Assembly (NCBI GenBank): GCA_015064545.1
Contig: SVSA01000015.1
Location: forward strand, 1-34,631
DNA length: 34,631 nucleotides
Direction: 5' to 3'
Source of the DNA: Oscillospiraceae bacterium
GTDB taxonomy: Bacteria > Bacillota > Clostridia > Oscillospirales > CAG-272
Shown: one piece after another, positions 1,537 to 34,631 of the stretch
Layout: each line of letters opens with the position of its first letter
How positions within the stretch are numbered: position 1 is the stretch's first letter
Translations under genes and position numbers: made by a program
Notes under the pieces: model-generated
Seen by the model: the letters and a program-made list of their open reading frames with translations, nothing else
Told to the model about the DNA's origin: nothing
Database searches by the model: none

Positions 1537-2634
1537 TCACAGCAGGGAGCCGATATCGGTGATACCGAAGATGTGAGGATGGGGCTCGATGGTTTCGTGA
1601 TCGTAGGTACCGTTTCCGATAAAAAATTGGTGTCCGATCCGATGCGTCTCATCCTCACTTAGATAGCCCCGTGTAATGGAGCAATCGCAGAAGGTATTAC
1701 CGCGGGGATAGCCGTCATGCCCGAGGGCATCCAACAGCAGTCCCTTGGCGGTTTCAAAACGGTAGACATTCATATGACAACGGCGGAAGGTGAGCTTTTC
1801 GGCATAACGAAGATGCACGGCAATGCCCTGATCCCGTTGCGCCGTGTCGAAGCGGCAGCCGATAAAGCTGCTGTTACGAACCGGCTCGCCCTCGTGTCCT
1901 TCACCGCCGATGCGGAGCGAGGTCACGTTTTCGAGTTGGTTAGCACAGCCTGACTGTTGAAACAGCAGATGCGAGGAGCCGCCGTCAATATCGATGCCAA
2001 CCGATTGTTGGCCCGAGACATGAACGCGGTCGAGCACGGCAGCGTGAACTGCGTGCAGGTGAAGCACGGTTTCGGCCATGCCATTGGCGCGAAGCGACAG
2101 ACAGGCCAGCCGGCAGTCGGCGATCGGGCCGCAAACCGAAAGCATGACGCCCATCGGCTTGATGGCGGTGAGCACGGTTTGCGAGACGGTTCCGTGTCCG
2201 ACGCCGCTTCCGGTTCCGATCAAACGGATTCCGTTTTTGCGCGAGGGTGTGGTACCGTTTCCGTCACCGATGCACAGGGTTTTCGAGATGGCATAATGAC
2301 CGCCGGGCAGGATGACCTCACCGCCGGATGCCGGAAGAGCATCGATTGCCGCCTGAATGGCTGCGGTATCGTCGGTCTTGCCGTCGCCTGCGGCGCCGAA
2401 CCATTTGACATGGATGCGGTGATTTTCCCGCACGCGGACATAGCGTCCTGCTTTAGCGCCGGCGGGCGCAAAGATGGTACCGCCGTCCTCCGGCAGAGCT
2501 TCGGAAGCATCCCAGTAGAAGGTGCCTCCTCCGCCGTCCCGCGGGCTTCGGTAGCCTGCCAGCATGACCACAGCGTGCGGGACCGGCGGCAGGGTTTTCT
2601 TCATGTCCTCAACCGAAGAGAAAAGATAGGTCAT
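1537..2634 (-). CDS. Pectate lyase superfamily (right-handed beta-helix) protein without an evident signal peptide
   Basis: Start at MTYLFSSVEDMKKTLPP (ATG complement 2632-2634) rather than the longer ORF, whose N-terminal extension overlaps the upstream gene; VKWFGAAGDGKTDDTAAIQAAIDALPASGGEVILPGGHYAIS motif. Confidence 0.8.
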   Translation of the reverse strand: MTYLFSSVEDMKKTLPPVPHAVVMLAGYRSPRDGGGGTFYWDASEALPEDGGTIFAPAGAKAGRYVRVRENHRIHVKWFGAAGDGKTDDTAAIQAAIDALPASGGEVILPGGHYAISKTLCIGDGNGTTPSRKNGIRLIGTGSGVGHGTVSQTVLTAIKPMGVMLSVCGPIADCRLACLSLRANGMAETVLHLHAVHAAVLDRVHVSGQQSVGIDIDGGSSHLLFQQSGCANQLENVTSLRIGGEGHEGEPVRNSSFIGCRFDTAQRDQGIAVHLRYAEKLTFRRCHMNVYRFETAKGLLLDALGHDGYPRGNTFCDCSITRGYLSEDETHRIGHQFFIGNGTYDHETIEPHPHIFGITDIGSLL

Positions 2635-2650
2635 AGAAGGCCTCTTTCGT

Positions 2651-3931
2651 TCATCCGTCGTAGCGGATGATCTTGCCATCCTCGGTAATTCCGAAGATGT
2701 GCTTGTTAGGGAGGAAGTCTTCTTGCAGATCGTAGGTGCCGTGGCCGAGGAAGAAGTGATAGCCGATGGTGTGGCTTTCATCCTCCAAGATCGAAGAACT
2801 GGCGACCGTACAATCGTAGAAGGAATTCTGACGGGGATATCCGTCGTTTTCCAGCGCGTTGAGCCACAAGGAAGTCGATTCCTCACTGTAAGCGCTGATG
2901 TGGCAACGCTTGAAGGTCAAGCCCTCAGCGTAGCGGATATCCAGCGTTACACAGTTCGGAAGCGTGTGGGGCTCGAAGCGGGAATCCTCGAATACGGTAT
3001 CGTACACGAGCGCGCCCTTTTCGTAATTGCCCCCCAACGAGAACACGGTGGTGTTTTCGTTGATGTTGACGAAATTGACCGAGCGGAACAGATTGTCATG
3101 GCTTCCGCCGAAAGCGGGTGCCTGCGCCGTATACACGACGCCGGTGCCCTTGAAGTTGATGCCGCTGACATAACTGAGCTCGCTTTGGACGATATCGGTC
3201 ATATACAGCAGGGTATTAACATTGGCCTGTCCGTTCAGACGGATTCCTTGGATAGTGACATCGGTGATGGGGCCGTTGATCGACAGCATGGTGTCGTACT
3301 TTGCCGAGGCGAGAAGTGTTGTCTCGGCGGTAACCTCATGCCCGAAGGCCGCTCCCTGGCCGATCAGTTTGATGCCGTTTTTATCAGAGGCTTTTTCGGT
3401 GGTGCCGTTCCCGATGTGGATGGTATCGGTTACTTTGTAGCGTCCGCCGGGCAGTACCACCGTGCCGCCTTCCTTCGGAAGACTGTCGATGGCGGCTTGA
3501 ATGGCGGCAGTGTCATCATGAGCACCGTCACCTGTCGCGCCGAACCACTTGACATTTCGATGATTGTCCTCGCAAAGACGGACATAGCGTCCGACCTCTG
3601 CACCGGTGGGGGCAATCACGGTGCCGCCGTTATCGGCAGCCGTTTCGCTGCTGTCCCAGTAGAACAAGCCTTTACCGCCGTCGCCGCTGAGGTAGTATCC
3701 GGTCAGCATGACGATGGCATGATCCACGGTGGGGATGGTGTCCCGCATTTTTCGGATATTTTCCAGGACAAGGTTTGCTTCGGAGGAGGCGGCAACCGAG
3801 ATCTCGGCTGCCGCGCTTTCCTCCGTATCGTCTCCCGCGTATGTGGCGGGAGACGGGGAACGCTCATGGCATGAGGCAAGAAGCAATGTACCGATCAGTA
3901 GTATGACGAATGCCGGTCGTTTTTTCTTCAC
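2651..3931 (-). CDS. Lipoprotein with pectate lyase superfamily beta-helix domain
   Basis: Lipobox LLLASC; VKWFGATGDGAHDDTAAIQAAIDSLPKEGGTVVLPGGRY. Confidence 0.85.
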   Translation of the reverse strand: MKKKRPAFVILLIGTLLLASCHERSPSPATYAGDDTEESAAAEISVAASSEANLVLENIRKMRDTIPTVDHAIVMLTGYYLSGDGGKGLFYWDSSETAADNGGTVIAPTGAEVGRYVRLCEDNHRNVKWFGATGDGAHDDTAAIQAAIDSLPKEGGTVVLPGGRYKVTDTIHIGNGTTEKASDKNGIKLIGQGAAFGHEVTAETTLLASAKYDTMLSINGPITDVTIQGIRLNGQANVNTLLYMTDIVQSELSYVSGINFKGTGVVYTAQAPAFGGSHDNLFRSVNFVNINENTTVFSLGGNYEKGALVYDTVFEDSRFEPHTLPNCVTLDIRYAEGLTFKRCHISAYSEESTSLWLNALENDGYPRQNSFYDCTVASSSILEDESHTIGYHFFLGHGTYDLQEDFLPNKHIFGITEDGKIIRYDG

Positions 3932-3972
3932 GGGATTATGCTCTCCTCTCGTTGTAACGGGTACGGGTCAAA

Positions 3973-4680
3973 TTACTCGACGATGAACTGAGCCCAAACG
4001 CCGGCATCATCCATTTCAACACCGTTTTCGTAGGTGTAGAAGTAGGGGGAAGAGTTCATGCACCAGATTGCCGTGCCATAGTCGTGCTCGGTGTCGCCGT
4101 CGGAGGTACCGGTGAACTCAACGAGATACTCGCCGGCAGGCAGGGGCTGCTCAAAGGTAATCATGTACCAGCCGCCGTTGGGGTAACCGGTAATGGTCAG
4201 CGTAGCAACAGCTTCGCCGGCAGCGGTGGTTTCGTAGTCGGTGTTCCAAGCGAAGACAGTAACCGTGATCTGGTCGCCGTTATCGTGGTCATAGGTAGCG
4301 GTGTAGAGGTTGATGGACTTGAAGGAGCCGCCAATATTAGCAACAACACCGTACTTATTGCCGAGCTTCAGGTTCTTGTGCTCCTGCTTGCCCATGCTGA
4401 GGTAGGTGGGAACGGTACCCTTGATGGCTTCCAGGCCGGTAGCGCCTACATTGGCGGGCGGCTCTTCGGTATCGGCCTCGGTATCCTTGGTGTCAGCCTC
4501 GGTGTCCTTGGTGTCGGCCTCAGTGTCCTTGGTATCGGCTTCGGTATCCTTGGTGTCAGCTTCGGTGTCGGTGGTGTTGGCAGGTGTGTTGGTGCCGTTG
4601 TTGCAAGCTACAAGAGCCAGCGAAAGAATGGCAGCTACGATAAGGCAAAGCACGCGAAGAGTAAGGTTTTTCATAATCAT
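3973..4680 (-). CDS. Lipoprotein with TEADTKD repeat linker and one copy of the WxxxYETT module
   Basis: Lipobox ALVAC; (TEADTKD)n linker; VFAWNTDYETTAAGEAV...AGEYLVEF. Confidence 0.8.
   Translation of the reverse strand: MIMKNLTLRVLCLIVAAILSLALVACNNGTNTPANTTDTEADTKDTEADTKDTEADTKDTEADTKDTEADTEEPPANVGATGLEAIKGTVPTYLSMGKQEHKNLKLGNKYGVVANIGGSFKSINLYTATYDHDNGDQITVTVFAWNTDYETTAAGEAVATLTITGYPNGGWYMITFEQPLPAGEYLVEFTGTSDGDTEHDYGTAIWCMNSSPYFYTYENGVEMDDAGVWAQFIVE
4467..4578. repeat. 21-bp tandem repeat encoding (TEADTKD)n
   Basis: Repeated 'tcggt(a/g)tccttggt(g/a)tc(a/g)gc(c/t)' units, at least four. Confidence 0.8.
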
Positions 4681-4700
4681 GTTCTCCTTAATAGTGTATT

Positions 4701-6506
4701 TTAATTTGTTATAAACTGACCGTGCAGACCGGCATCCACACGCTCACCGTTTACGAAAGTAATGGAGGTCGAGACCGCCGCACGGGTCCAAACGGCTACG
4801 CCATAATCGCCGGCGGGAGCAGATCCTGTCGCCACGATCAGGTAATAGCCGTTGCCGAGTCCCTCAAACTCGACATCGCACATGGTGTTATCCTTGAAGT
4901 CTACCACGGAATCGGTGGCGAGAACCTCGCCCTTCAGGGTTGTTTCATAGTCGGTATTCCAACGGTACACGTCGAATTTGACGGTACCCACGTTGTTGTC
5001 ATAGCTGGACAGATAGAAGGAACCGCCGATCAGGTTGCCCTTGGCGTTGACCAGCACGGCTACCTCCTTGGCCTGCTCCTGCAACAGATTCCGATGCTTT
5101 GCCACATCCTGACCGCCGCTGCAGGTATCCACACGGCCGCCCTTTGCTAAAAGGAAGTACTCGTCAAGCGGTTGATTGTTGTCATCGGGCGTACTGCTAT
5201 TATTTTTGTGAGCAAGGAACACGTCCAGATCGTCCATGTTGAAGGTTTCGCCGGTATCGGTGACACCAATCAGCTTGTTGTGCGTGGGGATCTTCTCGTT
5301 GTCGTACGTACCGAAGCCGTAGAAATACTGCTTACGGATGGTGTGGCTGGCATCCTCCCAAACCTCATGGGATACCATCGAGCAGTCGTAGAAGGCCATG
5401 CCGCAGGGGAAATCGTGGTTGTTGAGGGCATCAAAGACTGCGCCGATCGACGAGCTGTCGTAGGTGTTGAAGTGGCAACGGTAGAAGGAAATGCTATCCA
5501 CAAATTTGAAGTGGGCGGCGATGGAGTTTTTACTCTGTGCCGTATCGAAGCGGCAATCGGTCAGAACCGACAGCCAGGTGTCATTGTTGGTGCCGTAATC
5601 GCCGTCGAAGAGGATGGCGGTGGTGTTGTCGTAGAGGCAGAAGACACCGATGGATTCAAAGCGGTTATAAATATTGTAGTTTCCGGTAGGAGCTGTACCC
5701 GCCATCACCTTGATACCAATATCGGTAAAGCCCATAGCCATAATATTATGGAAATAACCGCCGGTGAAGGAATGGAGATACAGACAGGTCTTGGCCTTGT
5801 TGTTACCGTTCAGATAGATGCCGGAAACCTCGCAGTCGGAGATACGGCCGCGGACATGAATCATCGCTTCCATCTCGGTCGTTGCCACGATGCTCGTGGA
5901 GGCAGGGGTACTGAAGGCAAAGCCGCCGCCGGTGCCAACCAGCTTGATACCGCCCTTGGAGGAAACGGTCTGGCCGGCATCGCCGTTACCCATGTTCAGG
6001 GTAGCGGAGATATGATAGGTGCCGCCCGGCAAAGCAACGGTGCCGCCGCCATTGGGGAGCGTATCGATGGCCGCCTGAATGGCCGCGGTGTCATCGGCAG
6101 AGCCGTCGCCCTTGGCACCGAACCATTTGACATTCACGTAGTTTTCCTCGTAGTCGCGAACAAAGCGTCCGCTGGCGCGGTTACCCTTGATAACCGTGGC
6201 ACCGTTTTCCTCAATTCGCGAGGTAATGTCATAGTAGAAGGTTCCACCGCCGCCGTCGCCCGAACGGTGATAGCCCTTCAGAATGACGATGGCCTTGGGT
6301 TCCTTCGGCTCAAGCTCCAGCAGATCGGCCATGGTAGAGACCACATAGCTGCCGGCACCGGAGACGGTTACCTGCTCGACCTGCTCGGTCTCGGTCTCAG
6401 TCTCGGATTCGGTGCTAGCCGATCCACTGCCGCCGTCGGAGCAGCCGGCCAAAAGAAGCGTGGTCAACAGCCCGGCACTGAGAAATGTCAGGATCATTTT
6501 TTTCAT
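4701..6506 (-). CDS. Lipoprotein: pectate lyase superfamily beta-helix plus C-terminal WxxxYETT module
   Basis: Lipobox LLLAGC; VKWFGAKGDGSADDTAAIQAAIDTLPNGGGTVALPGGTYHIS; C-terminal KFDVYRWNTDYETTLKGEVLA...AGDYGVAVWT. Confidence 0.85.
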   Translation of the reverse strand: MKKMILTFLSAGLLTTLLLAGCSDGGSGSASTESETETETEQVEQVTVSGAGSYVVSTMADLLELEPKEPKAIVILKGYHRSGDGGGGTFYYDITSRIEENGATVIKGNRASGRFVRDYEENYVNVKWFGAKGDGSADDTAAIQAAIDTLPNGGGTVALPGGTYHISATLNMGNGDAGQTVSSKGGIKLVGTGGGFAFSTPASTSIVATTEMEAMIHVRGRISDCEVSGIYLNGNNKAKTCLYLHSFTGGYFHNIMAMGFTDIGIKVMAGTAPTGNYNIYNRFESIGVFCLYDNTTAILFDGDYGTNNDTWLSVLTDCRFDTAQSKNSIAAHFKFVDSISFYRCHFNTYDSSSIGAVFDALNNHDFPCGMAFYDCSMVSHEVWEDASHTIRKQYFYGFGTYDNEKIPTHNKLIGVTDTGETFNMDDLDVFLAHKNNSSTPDDNNQPLDEYFLLAKGGRVDTCSGGQDVAKHRNLLQEQAKEVAVLVNAKGNLIGGSFYLSSYDNNVGTVKFDVYRWNTDYETTLKGEVLATDSVVDFKDNTMCDVEFEGLGNGYYLIVATGSAPAGDYGVAVWTRAAVSTSITFVNGERVDAGLHGQFITN

Positions 6507-31951: not shown

Positions 31952-32054
31952 TCTTTATATTCCTCTCAATTTGTATTCTCTCTAATATAATGCATTGAAA
32001 ATCATCAATATTTATGTTATAATACTGTCAAAGAATTCGAGGTGGAATTATAAA

Positions 32055-32948
32055 ATGGCAGATACAACCGTTCATCAACACTATGTTTGGCGATATTATT
32101 TAAGGCAATGGGCAACCAACGAACAGATTATATGTTTGCGAGATGGAAATAAAATATTCCCTGTCAACTTGATGAAGATAGCACAAGAAAAATTGTTTTA
32201 TCAATTTTGCGAATCATCCGAAACCGATTTTTTAATCGCTCGTCATATGGCGGACGATTGCTCCATTAAGCTTATAGAGGTTTATGAAAGTATCAACGCA
32301 TTTTTGCGTAGCGCAAGAGAAAACGGAGATGACGCATTATATCAAGATATACTTGAGTTTTGTAAGGACTTTGATGAAAAATTCTACAATTGCCCCGTTG
32401 AAAAAGCATTAAAATTACCATTAGAGAAACTATATGCAAAAGATTTTTCTTTTTTGGATAATCAGGATACCAAAATCCCGTTTTGCAATGCAATAGCAGA
32501 ACAATATTGTCGAACAAACATGATGAAAACAGGATTTATTCGTAGTATAAAAGAATCAAATATCGAAGGGGCTAATCCACACAATGTATGGTTCTTAATT
32601 CGTCATAGTTTGGCGTGCAAAATAGGGATGGCTCTTGCCTTTAAGGAATATCGTTTTTGCTTATTAGAAAGCTCGGATGTTCCGCTTATTACAGGAGATC
32701 AGCCAATTATAAATGTTTATGCCGACTATAGAGAACCTAAAGGAATTGCAGAACAGTGTGATTTATATTATCCAATAACTCCACAATTGGCTTTGTTCAT
32801 CACCGATAAGGATATTGTTGAAAACAAGGGCATGATTTTTCTATCACGAGAGCAAGCAATGAAATTAAACGATCTCATAGTTGCCGCATCTCACAGCCAA
32901 GTCTTTGCAGCAAACAATGATGACCTCTTAAAATATAAAACAACATAA
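32055..32948 (+). CDS. DUF4238-like protein
   Basis: Start MADTTVHQHYVWRYYLRQWATNEQI; LITGDQPIINVYAD...DLYYPITPQLALFIT pattern. Confidence 0.7.
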   Translation: MADTTVHQHYVWRYYLRQWATNEQIICLRDGNKIFPVNLMKIAQEKLFYQFCESSETDFLIARHMADDCSIKLIEVYESINAFLRSARENGDDALYQDILEFCKDFDEKFYNCPVEKALKLPLEKLYAKDFSFLDNQDTKIPFCNAIAEQYCRTNMMKTGFIRSIKESNIEGANPHNVWFLIRHSLACKIGMALAFKEYRFCLLESSDVPLITGDQPIINVYADYREPKGIAEQCDLYYPITPQLALFITDKDIVENKGMIFLSREQAMKLNDLIVAASHSQVFAANNDDLLKYKTT

Positions 32949-33062: not shown

Positions 33063-33091
33063 TTGACTTGAGTATATGGGTATGGTATAAT
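33063..33091 (+). promoter_or_regulatory. Near-consensus extended -10 promoter
   Basis: TTGACT - 17 nt ending TGG - TATAAT. Confidence 0.8.
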
Positions 33092-33341: not shown

Positions 33342-33370
33342 TTGACAAAAACACTCCTTTTTGGTATAAT
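33342..33370 (+). promoter_or_regulatory. Perfect consensus sigma70 promoter
   Basis: TTGACA - 17 nt ending TGG - TATAAT. Confidence 0.9.
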
Positions 33371-33375
33371 AAAGG

Positions 33376-33870
33376 TGCAGAGGGCTAGAACCCCTGGATT
33401 GATTTTTGTGCGCCGTCCAATAGGACACATTTTCGCGGCTATGCCGTGTAGCACATCTGGTTAGGATTGTATTTATGTGTTGTGTTAGGATACCGTGGGC
33501 TTTTTGCTCGCAATGCACACGTTGTTATTTTTGTATGCGGTTATGATGCAACTATCATAACCATGTTTTGAGAATGGATCAATTTACGGGGTAAGTGTTT
33601 CTTCTCCCCTGCGAAGAAAGTTTATATCTTGCCATTGAGCAGGAACAGTTTATCAGAGCCGTATGGCAAGCTATTTCCGGGCAACCGTTGCAAATAGCTA
33701 TTTTCAAGGATTCAGGCGCATTCACGCGCAAATTGTGTTGAGGGCAGTTTTTACGGGATAACTATGCCCGTAAAAGTATCAGGGTAATTTTCATAATTAC
33801 CACAATGAATTTCATAGCGACATCGCCGCAAAAGTGTGAAAGTACAGGAAAAAGATTTCTGTGCTTTTTT
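33376..33870 (+). ncRNA. Large structured RNA candidate B (about 495 nt) with its own promoter and terminator
   Basis: Promoter 33342-33370, terminator 33839-33870, and at least eight helices in between, including a three-way junction and an H-type pseudoknot; no plausible ORF. Confidence 0.65.
33839..33870 (+). terminator. Intrinsic terminator of RNA candidate B
   Basis: aagtacag gaaaaagattt ctgtgctt + TTTT. Confidence 0.75.
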
Positions 33871-33942
33871 CGTTGTCAGCGATGCGTACCGGAGGCGGAT
33901 TTTTACGTTCCGTTTTTGCCGTTATGAAAGGAGGTGGTGCTT

Positions 33943-34062
33943 ATGAAAATTACCCTTTTTGTATTTTTCATATATTCTTGCACATTGAACAAACATATCA
34001 ACCATCGCCTCCGTCGCGCATCCGTTAAACTCACACAGAAAAGCGTAGGGCTTAGCTGCTAA
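33943..34062 (+). CDS. Small ORF, 39 aa, with very strong SD
   Basis: gaaaggaggtggtgcttATG; MKITLFVFFIYSCTLNKHINHRLRRASVKLTQKSVGLSC*. Confidence 0.35.
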   Translation: MKITLFVFFIYSCTLNKHINHRLRRASVKLTQKSVGLSC

Positions 34063-34099
34063 CAATCGTTATCCGGAAATCGTAACGCTATCCAAGACG

Positions 34100-34426
34100 T
34101 TGCAACGGTTAAGAGAAAGTAATCCCAAAATAACACAGGCATCTCTTATACGAGATGGATATTTTCAAAGAACAAGAATCAATCGTATATTCAGAAACAG
34201 TAATGACAAGGGCGGACCGTTCCCTATAACCGTAAAGGATATCGTCACTCTCGCAATCGCTTATAAGCTAAACGAGGAGCAGACAAGAGAACTTTTATTC
34301 AGCGCATTCCCAGATTTCAGATTTTATGAGATGTTCGTAAAAAATCAAATGAGTCTGGCAGATGCAAACGAAATCTTAGACGAGCAAGCTCTTGACTTGC
34401 TTGGTACGTCAATCTTAGATGATTGA
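34100..34426 (+). CDS. HTH-like small protein; true N-terminus uncertain
   Basis: Frame open from 34049 but no ATG/GTG; TTG at 34100 lacks an SD; RESNPKITQASLIRDGYFQRTRINRIF...KDIVTLAIAYKLNEEQTRELLFSAFPDF. Confidence 0.5.
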   Translation: MQRLRESNPKITQASLIRDGYFQRTRINRIFRNSNDKGGPFPITVKDIVTLAIAYKLNEEQTRELLFSAFPDFRFYEMFVKNQMSLADANEILDEQALDLLGTSILDD

Positions 34427-34556
34427 AAAAATGATAAAGTTTCCTCGCGCCGCTTCCCTTGGGGAAGCAGGAAACGCTTTGACATCAGGTATAATGGTGT
34501 CAGGTTAAAGTTGCGCAACCAAAACCAATTTTTTATTTACGAAAGGAGAAAAAAGT

Positions 34557-34631
34557 ATGCTAAACATCAGAGATCTTAAAATCGATCCCGCCTCGCTCGG
34601 TGAGAAAAAGCTCCTTGTGGAGATCATTCCC
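34557..34631 (+). CDS. Partial CDS running off the right edge, unknown
   Basis: gaaaggag SD; MLNIRDLKIDPASLGEKKLLVEIIP... Confidence 0.6.
   Translation, partial: MLNIRDLKIDPASLGEKKLLVEIIP

Follow-up and report, generated by a model that had tools for sequence, protein, structure and literature searches.

A promoter-proximal structured RNA family of mobile elements in gut Clostridia and its proposed role in processive antitermination

To our knowledge, RNA-based antiterminators of the processive kind are rare (HK022 put, EAR and Tn916 canT). HK022 put brings about readthrough in cis without added factors and contacts the beta' zinc-binding domain, and lambda nut is an RNA site which acts together with the protein N. 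The put RNAs are about 70-80 nt long and act on RNA polymerase, putL being located just downstream of PL (PMC9378689). Tn916 canT, a 452-nt RNA, acts on several terminators in cis and needs no other Tn916 genes (PMC11658703). The conjugation operon of pLS20 is headed by conAn, which consists of the conAn2 RNA and the ConAn1 protein; EAR, cited in the same source, is an RNA-based processive antiterminator in the leaders of Bacillus exopolysaccharide operons (PMC8955417).

The RNA analyzed here is located in the window, by which we mean the whole stretch of DNA studied (34,631 nt). An earlier note on this DNA had claimed a perfect promoter at 33342-33370, an intrinsic terminator at 33839-33870 and no credible ORF in between. 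The promoter was confirmed as a 12/12 match and the terminator as a 13-pair hairpin with a T run; overlapping frames of 72-88 aa found in the RNA are not preserved in its homologs, where indels are not multiples of three, which bears out the third claim. A blastn search over 397 genomes of the family found the window RNA in four other genera, the sources being goat colon (L042), roe deer cecum (L043) and sheep colon (L044 and L045). L042, L043 and L044 have the large form, built of the same blocks, with L043 ending at a contig edge. The parts of the window RNA are as follows.

33342..33370, + strand: promoter of the large RNA, TTGACA-17-TATAAT, matching sigma-70 in 12/12 positions, with an extended -10 (TG ahead of the -10)
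33377..33870, + strand: large leader RNA of about 494 nt, an enlarged member of the module family; homologous RNAs with conserved blocks in L042, L043 and L044
33394..33474, + strand: 5' module, a three-way junction plus outer helix; 80.9 bits with covariance model R2, 47 copies, covariation
33475..33538, + strand: degenerate second module copy retaining the GCACACGUUGUUAUUUUUGUAUG 3' part; weak covariance model match at 33490-33538, E 0.036 unfiltered
33585..33619, + strand: H-type pseudoknot, GGGG/CCCC with UUUCUUC/GAAGAAA; both helices present in L043 and L042 (by inspection)
33838..33870, + strand: intrinsic terminator separating the RNA from the genes downstream; hairpin of 13 pairs (33838-33868) and T run

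In the window the RNA takes an enlarged form: a degenerate second module and a pseudoknot are present, and the terminator is placed at the 3' end of the RNA. The covariance model recognized one strong and one degenerate module copy in it, and three strong copies in the single RNA of L042. The forward-strand fold of the window RNA is more stable than those of dinucleotide shuffles (z -2.75). Since the same is true of the opposite strand (z -3.42), an RNA cannot be established by folding energy alone. Comparison of homologs identified a conserved unit of about 80 nt (window 33394-33474) which forms a three-way junction. Its helices are P1 (UGUGC/GCACA), P2 (GUCC/GGAC), a variable covarying P3 and an outer P0 (UUGAU/GUUAR). 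The junction drawn earlier (gtgc/gcac enclosing gtcc-aata-ggac and cggc-tat-gccg) is conserved and covaries, and P0 extends it. The pseudoknot drawn from gggg/cccc and tttcttc/gaagaaa is likewise kept in L043 and L042, and in L044 it takes a shortened form, GGGG/CCCC being replaced by GGGAG/CUCCC and the second helix being reduced in length (by inspection). Two further stems drawn, the hairpin 33539-33562 and ctattt/aaatag, are reduced or absent in L044 and L042 and proved not to be general.

Among 41 distinct aligned module copies, 93.5% of alignment cells pair and 74 cells are doubly compensated, compared with a shuffled mean of 25.7 (0/500 shuffles); this alignment was fitted to the covariance model, which favours the structure. 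Versions of the structure slid along the alignment gave at most 16 doubly changed cells. The first seven copies, aligned independently, showed weaker covariation in the same direction, and RNAalifold on three full-length RNAs, in which the 5' module of L044 was misaligned, gave no useful covariation. Overall, the conserved structured RNA family is almost certainly real. It is new with respect to Rfam; an unnamed computational prediction of it may exist in a human-microbiome structured-RNA study (PMC8040213).

Whole-RNA blastn did not find the window RNA in the nearest relatives of its genome, the matches obtained there being promoter-sized or coding chance matches which were discarded on inspection. 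No match to it was found in phage and plasmid collections. The exact window motif was not found in the genome contigs, and a relaxed motif scan of them returned five loci, adding L049. In L045 and L049 only the first 80 nt or so (window 33394-33474) are shared, followed by different sequence and terminators, which indicates that the 5' domain is a portable module. A first covariance model detected 15 module copies in 11/397 genomes of the family. A second one, built from these copies, detected the module in 17/396 genomes of the order but in only 2/300 genomes of the phylum, one of the two belonging to the window itself and the second being marginal. The module was also found in IMG/VR contigs, in human-gut phage records and on plasmids of Vescimonas fastidiosa MM35 and Subdoligranulum variabile. 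In total, covariance-model searches gave 47 copies, carried by integrative elements, plasmids or phage-like contigs from gut Clostridia. The majority of relatives are short leaders close to the promoter with a terminator behind them, with about 130-250 nt up to the terminators, and the conserved unit is only about 80 nt, so that large size is not what defines the family. The form of about 495 nt is an enlarged version observed in only one element type.

The position of the module relative to the promoter is fixed. In 32/42 copies the -10 hexamer ends 5-6 nt ahead of the module, which places the module start at about +1 of the transcript, and a promoter of at least 9/12 was found for 37/42 copies. 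In 33/42 copies an intrinsic terminator of -15 kcal/mol or better followed on the module's strand at a distance of no more than 160 nt, compared with 0/42 on the opposite strand and 21/210 in shuffles. Ahead of the first large gene, many operons carry a pair of leader terminators, one at about +120 to +155 and the other at about +200 to +320. In L107, L108 and L120 only 43-44 nt separate the terminator from the start of the first gene, which leaves no room for another promoter. Further internal terminators are located 26-43 nt ahead of the next start codon. Tight operon-internal terminators (75 nt or less to the next start) were found in 9/95 codirectional gene pairs and in 5/201 pairs of control regions from the same genomes (p = 0.012); several of the loci are near-duplicates, so this excess is modest and supportive only, and weak sub-threshold promoters may remain inside the operons. 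Tight terminators alone are enriched, the total of intergenic terminators in the operons showing no significant excess (11/95 vs 20/201). The large-form copies (n=4) are arranged differently: their module begins 23-25 nt after the -10 (23 nt in the window) and is preceded by a small hairpin. The window, L042, L043 and L044 copies have no terminator directly after the module, that of the window RNA lying about 365 nt past it. Many module promoters (L059, L064, L089 and others) contain a palindrome (ACACAATATATTGTGT) in the -35/-10 spacer, which is likely to be a repressor operator; the window promoter is without it.

Every module context with recognizable genes was mobile, and the mobile-element setting claimed earlier for the window is correct. 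In one type of element the module adjoins genes for a tyrosine or serine recombinase, an excisionase and/or an HTH protein, and the operon continues with genes for a YqaJ exonuclease, a RecD-like helicase, a primase-like protein and a ligase. A second type of operon opens with an SSB-like protein. The window-type operon encodes an HTH protein, a small unknown protein, Rep (PF02407) and FtsK, and in L116 it ends with Tn916-type Xis and integrase. The L044 element adjoins a tRNA-Ser gene (by inspection), and several genomes have inward-facing module pairs on one contig, 2 to 72 kb apart. Three further observations were made in module-led operons and elements. An Arg/Lys-rich ORF of 52-54 aa is located right after the leader terminators (L106, 286-450 past the module start; equivalents in L045, L059, L062 and L064). 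A homolog of the AcrIIA9 anti-CRISPR family is encoded in a module-led operon of the V. fastidiosa MM35 plasmid pMM35_02 (L139, 13197-14045); the module of this plasmid is located at about 135,754-135,856. A match to the Rfam ssNA-helicase RNA (RF03070), incomplete at the end of the locus, lies downstream of the module in L060 (3038-3075), an integrative element of the same type.

In these operons the RNA is made first and is followed by terminators which the only visible promoter of the operon must cross, which is the layout of RNA-based antitermination. By analogy, the module is probably a nascent-RNA processive antiterminator, comparable in its mode of action to HK022 put or Tn916 canT and unrelated to them in sequence. 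The window RNA would then be the nascent leader of the replication/transfer operon of a mobile element. Its 5' module would fold on leaving RNA polymerase and most likely stay bound to the enzyme. The modified polymerase would resist the intrinsic terminators between the promoter and the genes as well as those inside the operon, the action being RNA-based and in cis. Terminators would block stray transcription, and transcripts from the element's own promoter would pass. The RNA family itself, its fixed position at the promoter, the terminators after the module and the association with mobile elements are direct observations; polymerase binding and readthrough by the module are inferred from the known systems.

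Covariance models of the module did not match Tn916 canT (L067 2166-2617, 452 nt), and the module model matched neither the HK022 genome nor 50 kb of pLS20, so the module was not assigned to canT, conAn or put. The resemblance to canT lies in a structured RNA (about 450 nt in canT) upstream of DNA-processing and transfer genes (in canT, after circularization) of a Gram-positive integrative element, and in a noncoding RNA which heads the operon with a terminator in between (window 33377-34631; gene order of L042, L044 and L116). In addition, Xis and integrase of the window-type element, as seen in L116, are of the Tn916 type. However, canT is located at the far end of Tn916 and reaches its genes only after excision. 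As with HK022 put, the RNA lies just downstream of an early promoter and ahead of terminators, starting at about +1 in 32/42 copies, and the inward-facing pairs in elements with two module copies recall putL and putR; put, in contrast, has two stem-loops where the module forms a three-way junction plus outer helix, and the hosts are different. The conAn RNA of pLS20 similarly heads a Gram-positive conjugation operon which is long and contains internal terminators, but it requires a protein partner. EAR, too, is a processive RNA antiterminator situated in the leader of a long operon, although it belongs to chromosomal operons of Bacilli, and the window RNA gave no match to the Rfam eps leader at E up to 10.

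The earlier note had proposed a member or relative of ROOL or, alternatively, a new class. ROOL, GOLLD and OLE are also large ornate bacterial RNAs, some of them associated with mobile elements, and the size, ornate pairing and mobile context of the window RNA would suit these families or HEARO. However, cmscan with all 4227 Rfam families detected no ROOL, GOLLD, OLE or HEARO at E up to 10, and on the window RNA alone gave only sub-threshold chance matches to unrelated small families. Scans of the window RNA and 12 homologs at gathering and permissive thresholds found nothing for the module. Moreover, the conserved unit is a short promoter-proximal module, and relatives with the conserved core measure only 130-250 nt or so up to the terminators. 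Membership of or kinship with these families is hardly credible, and it was the second proposal that held, as homologs exist, covary, are absent from Rfam and keep a fixed genomic position. Nearly all copies have a promoter and a terminator of their own, which together with the large structured form in the window could indicate a stand-alone small RNA which ends at its terminator and regulates genes of the element or host in trans, the downstream genes being expressed otherwise. We consider this unlikely, since the module lies ahead of element genes on its own strand in the operons examined, several first genes lie too close to the terminator for a promoter, and conservation is concentrated at the 5' end beside the promoter rather than in a free region for binding targets.

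A leader sensing a ligand, a protein or an antisense RNA, in the manner of a single-site attenuator or riboswitch, would control the adjacent terminator only. The terminator right after the module at the operon head could be explained in this way, and the palindromic operator-like promoter spacers suggest layered control. However, the module and the first terminator hairpin fold together in 23/29 cases, with compatible helices and no arm in common, which disfavours an ordinary mutually exclusive attenuator; the second leader terminators and the tight operon-internal ones would also need to be bypassed, and the window form has no adjacent terminator. Single-site control is thus rather improbable. 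It is very doubtful, too, that the module is the RNA site of an antiterminator which requires an element-encoded protein, as in lambda nut/N or conAn2/ConAn1. The bipartite nature of pLS20 conAn (PMC8955417) and the Arg/Lys-rich 52-54 aa protein encoded just past the leader terminators in YqaJ-type operons agree with such a requirement, but no small basic protein near the module is common to YqaJ-, SSB- and Rep/FtsK-type operons, and where one is present it lies downstream of the terminators.

Returning to RNA-based antitermination, we lean slightly towards a wider picture in which an unnamed family of antiterminator RNAs would control early, replication and transfer operons in many plasmids and in many integrative and phage-like elements from gut Oscillospiraceae and related Clostridia, one element type having enlarged it by module duplication to a multi-domain RNA of about 500-690 nt. 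If true, this would make it possible to test directly how RNA polymerase is reprogrammed by a nascent RNA outside Enterobacteria and Bacilli. The family is compact and strongly covarying, its position at +1 is fixed, its terminators are matched, and dozens of natural variants exist. Such control would also explain how genes of gut mobile elements are kept silent under stray transcription, and how one promoter switches on replication, transfer and anti-defence genes (one operon containing the AcrIIA9 homolog).

The other features of the window near the RNA are as follows.

33063..33091, + strand: promoter of the adjacent leader RNA1, TTGACT-17-TATAAT, 11/12; conserved in L042, L043 and L044
33098..33340, + strand: RNA1, a conserved noncoding leader in tandem upstream; 91% identical in L042 and 72% in L044
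33885..34035, + strand: long-range inverted repeat (GATGCG..CGGAGGCG / CGCCTCCGTCGCGCATC) around a Shine-Dalgarno sequence and a small ORF
33943..34062, + strand: 39-aa ORF with a strong Shine-Dalgarno sequence; equivalents in L042, L044 and L060, no Pfam match
34100..34426, + strand: 108-aa protein, with an uncertain start codon, where related elements have their HTH gene
34557..34631, + strand: start of the small MLNIRDLKIDP gene, first in the Rep-FtsK module and truncated where the contig ends

The module model did not match RNA1, and a hairpin motif, CTTGC..AGCAAGAA.A.TTTATCAGA, is common to RNA1 and the main RNA (E 0.002). The layout of the inverted repeat is kept in L044 and L060, where the arms are changed and still complementary, and in L060 the 3' arm could also pair with the Shine-Dalgarno sequence. 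The arrangement of repeat, Shine-Dalgarno and 39-codon ORF (33885-34062) looks like a translational attenuator, and the ORF possibly encodes a leader peptide. The 108-aa protein had no Pfam match; its positional equivalents in L044 and L116 are Cro/C1 HTH proteins. The complete MLNIRDLKIDP gene, followed by Rep and FtsK, is present in L042 and L116. A suspected assignment of its product as a DUF961-type protein (Tn916 orf22/23) was not adopted, Pfam and NCBIfam giving no support. Upstream of the RNA the cargo varies, with DUF4238 in the window (31995-32948), DUF2971 in L042 (7302-8303) and, by sequence, dynamin-like GTPases in L043 (3244-7037); this end of the element is possibly a defence hotspot. 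A gene for an LRR surface protein recurs in the window and L042. At 1537-6506 the window encodes several tandem secreted-type proteins on the minus strand, with a repeated pectate-lyase-like motif, VKWFGA.GDG..DDTAAIQAAID.
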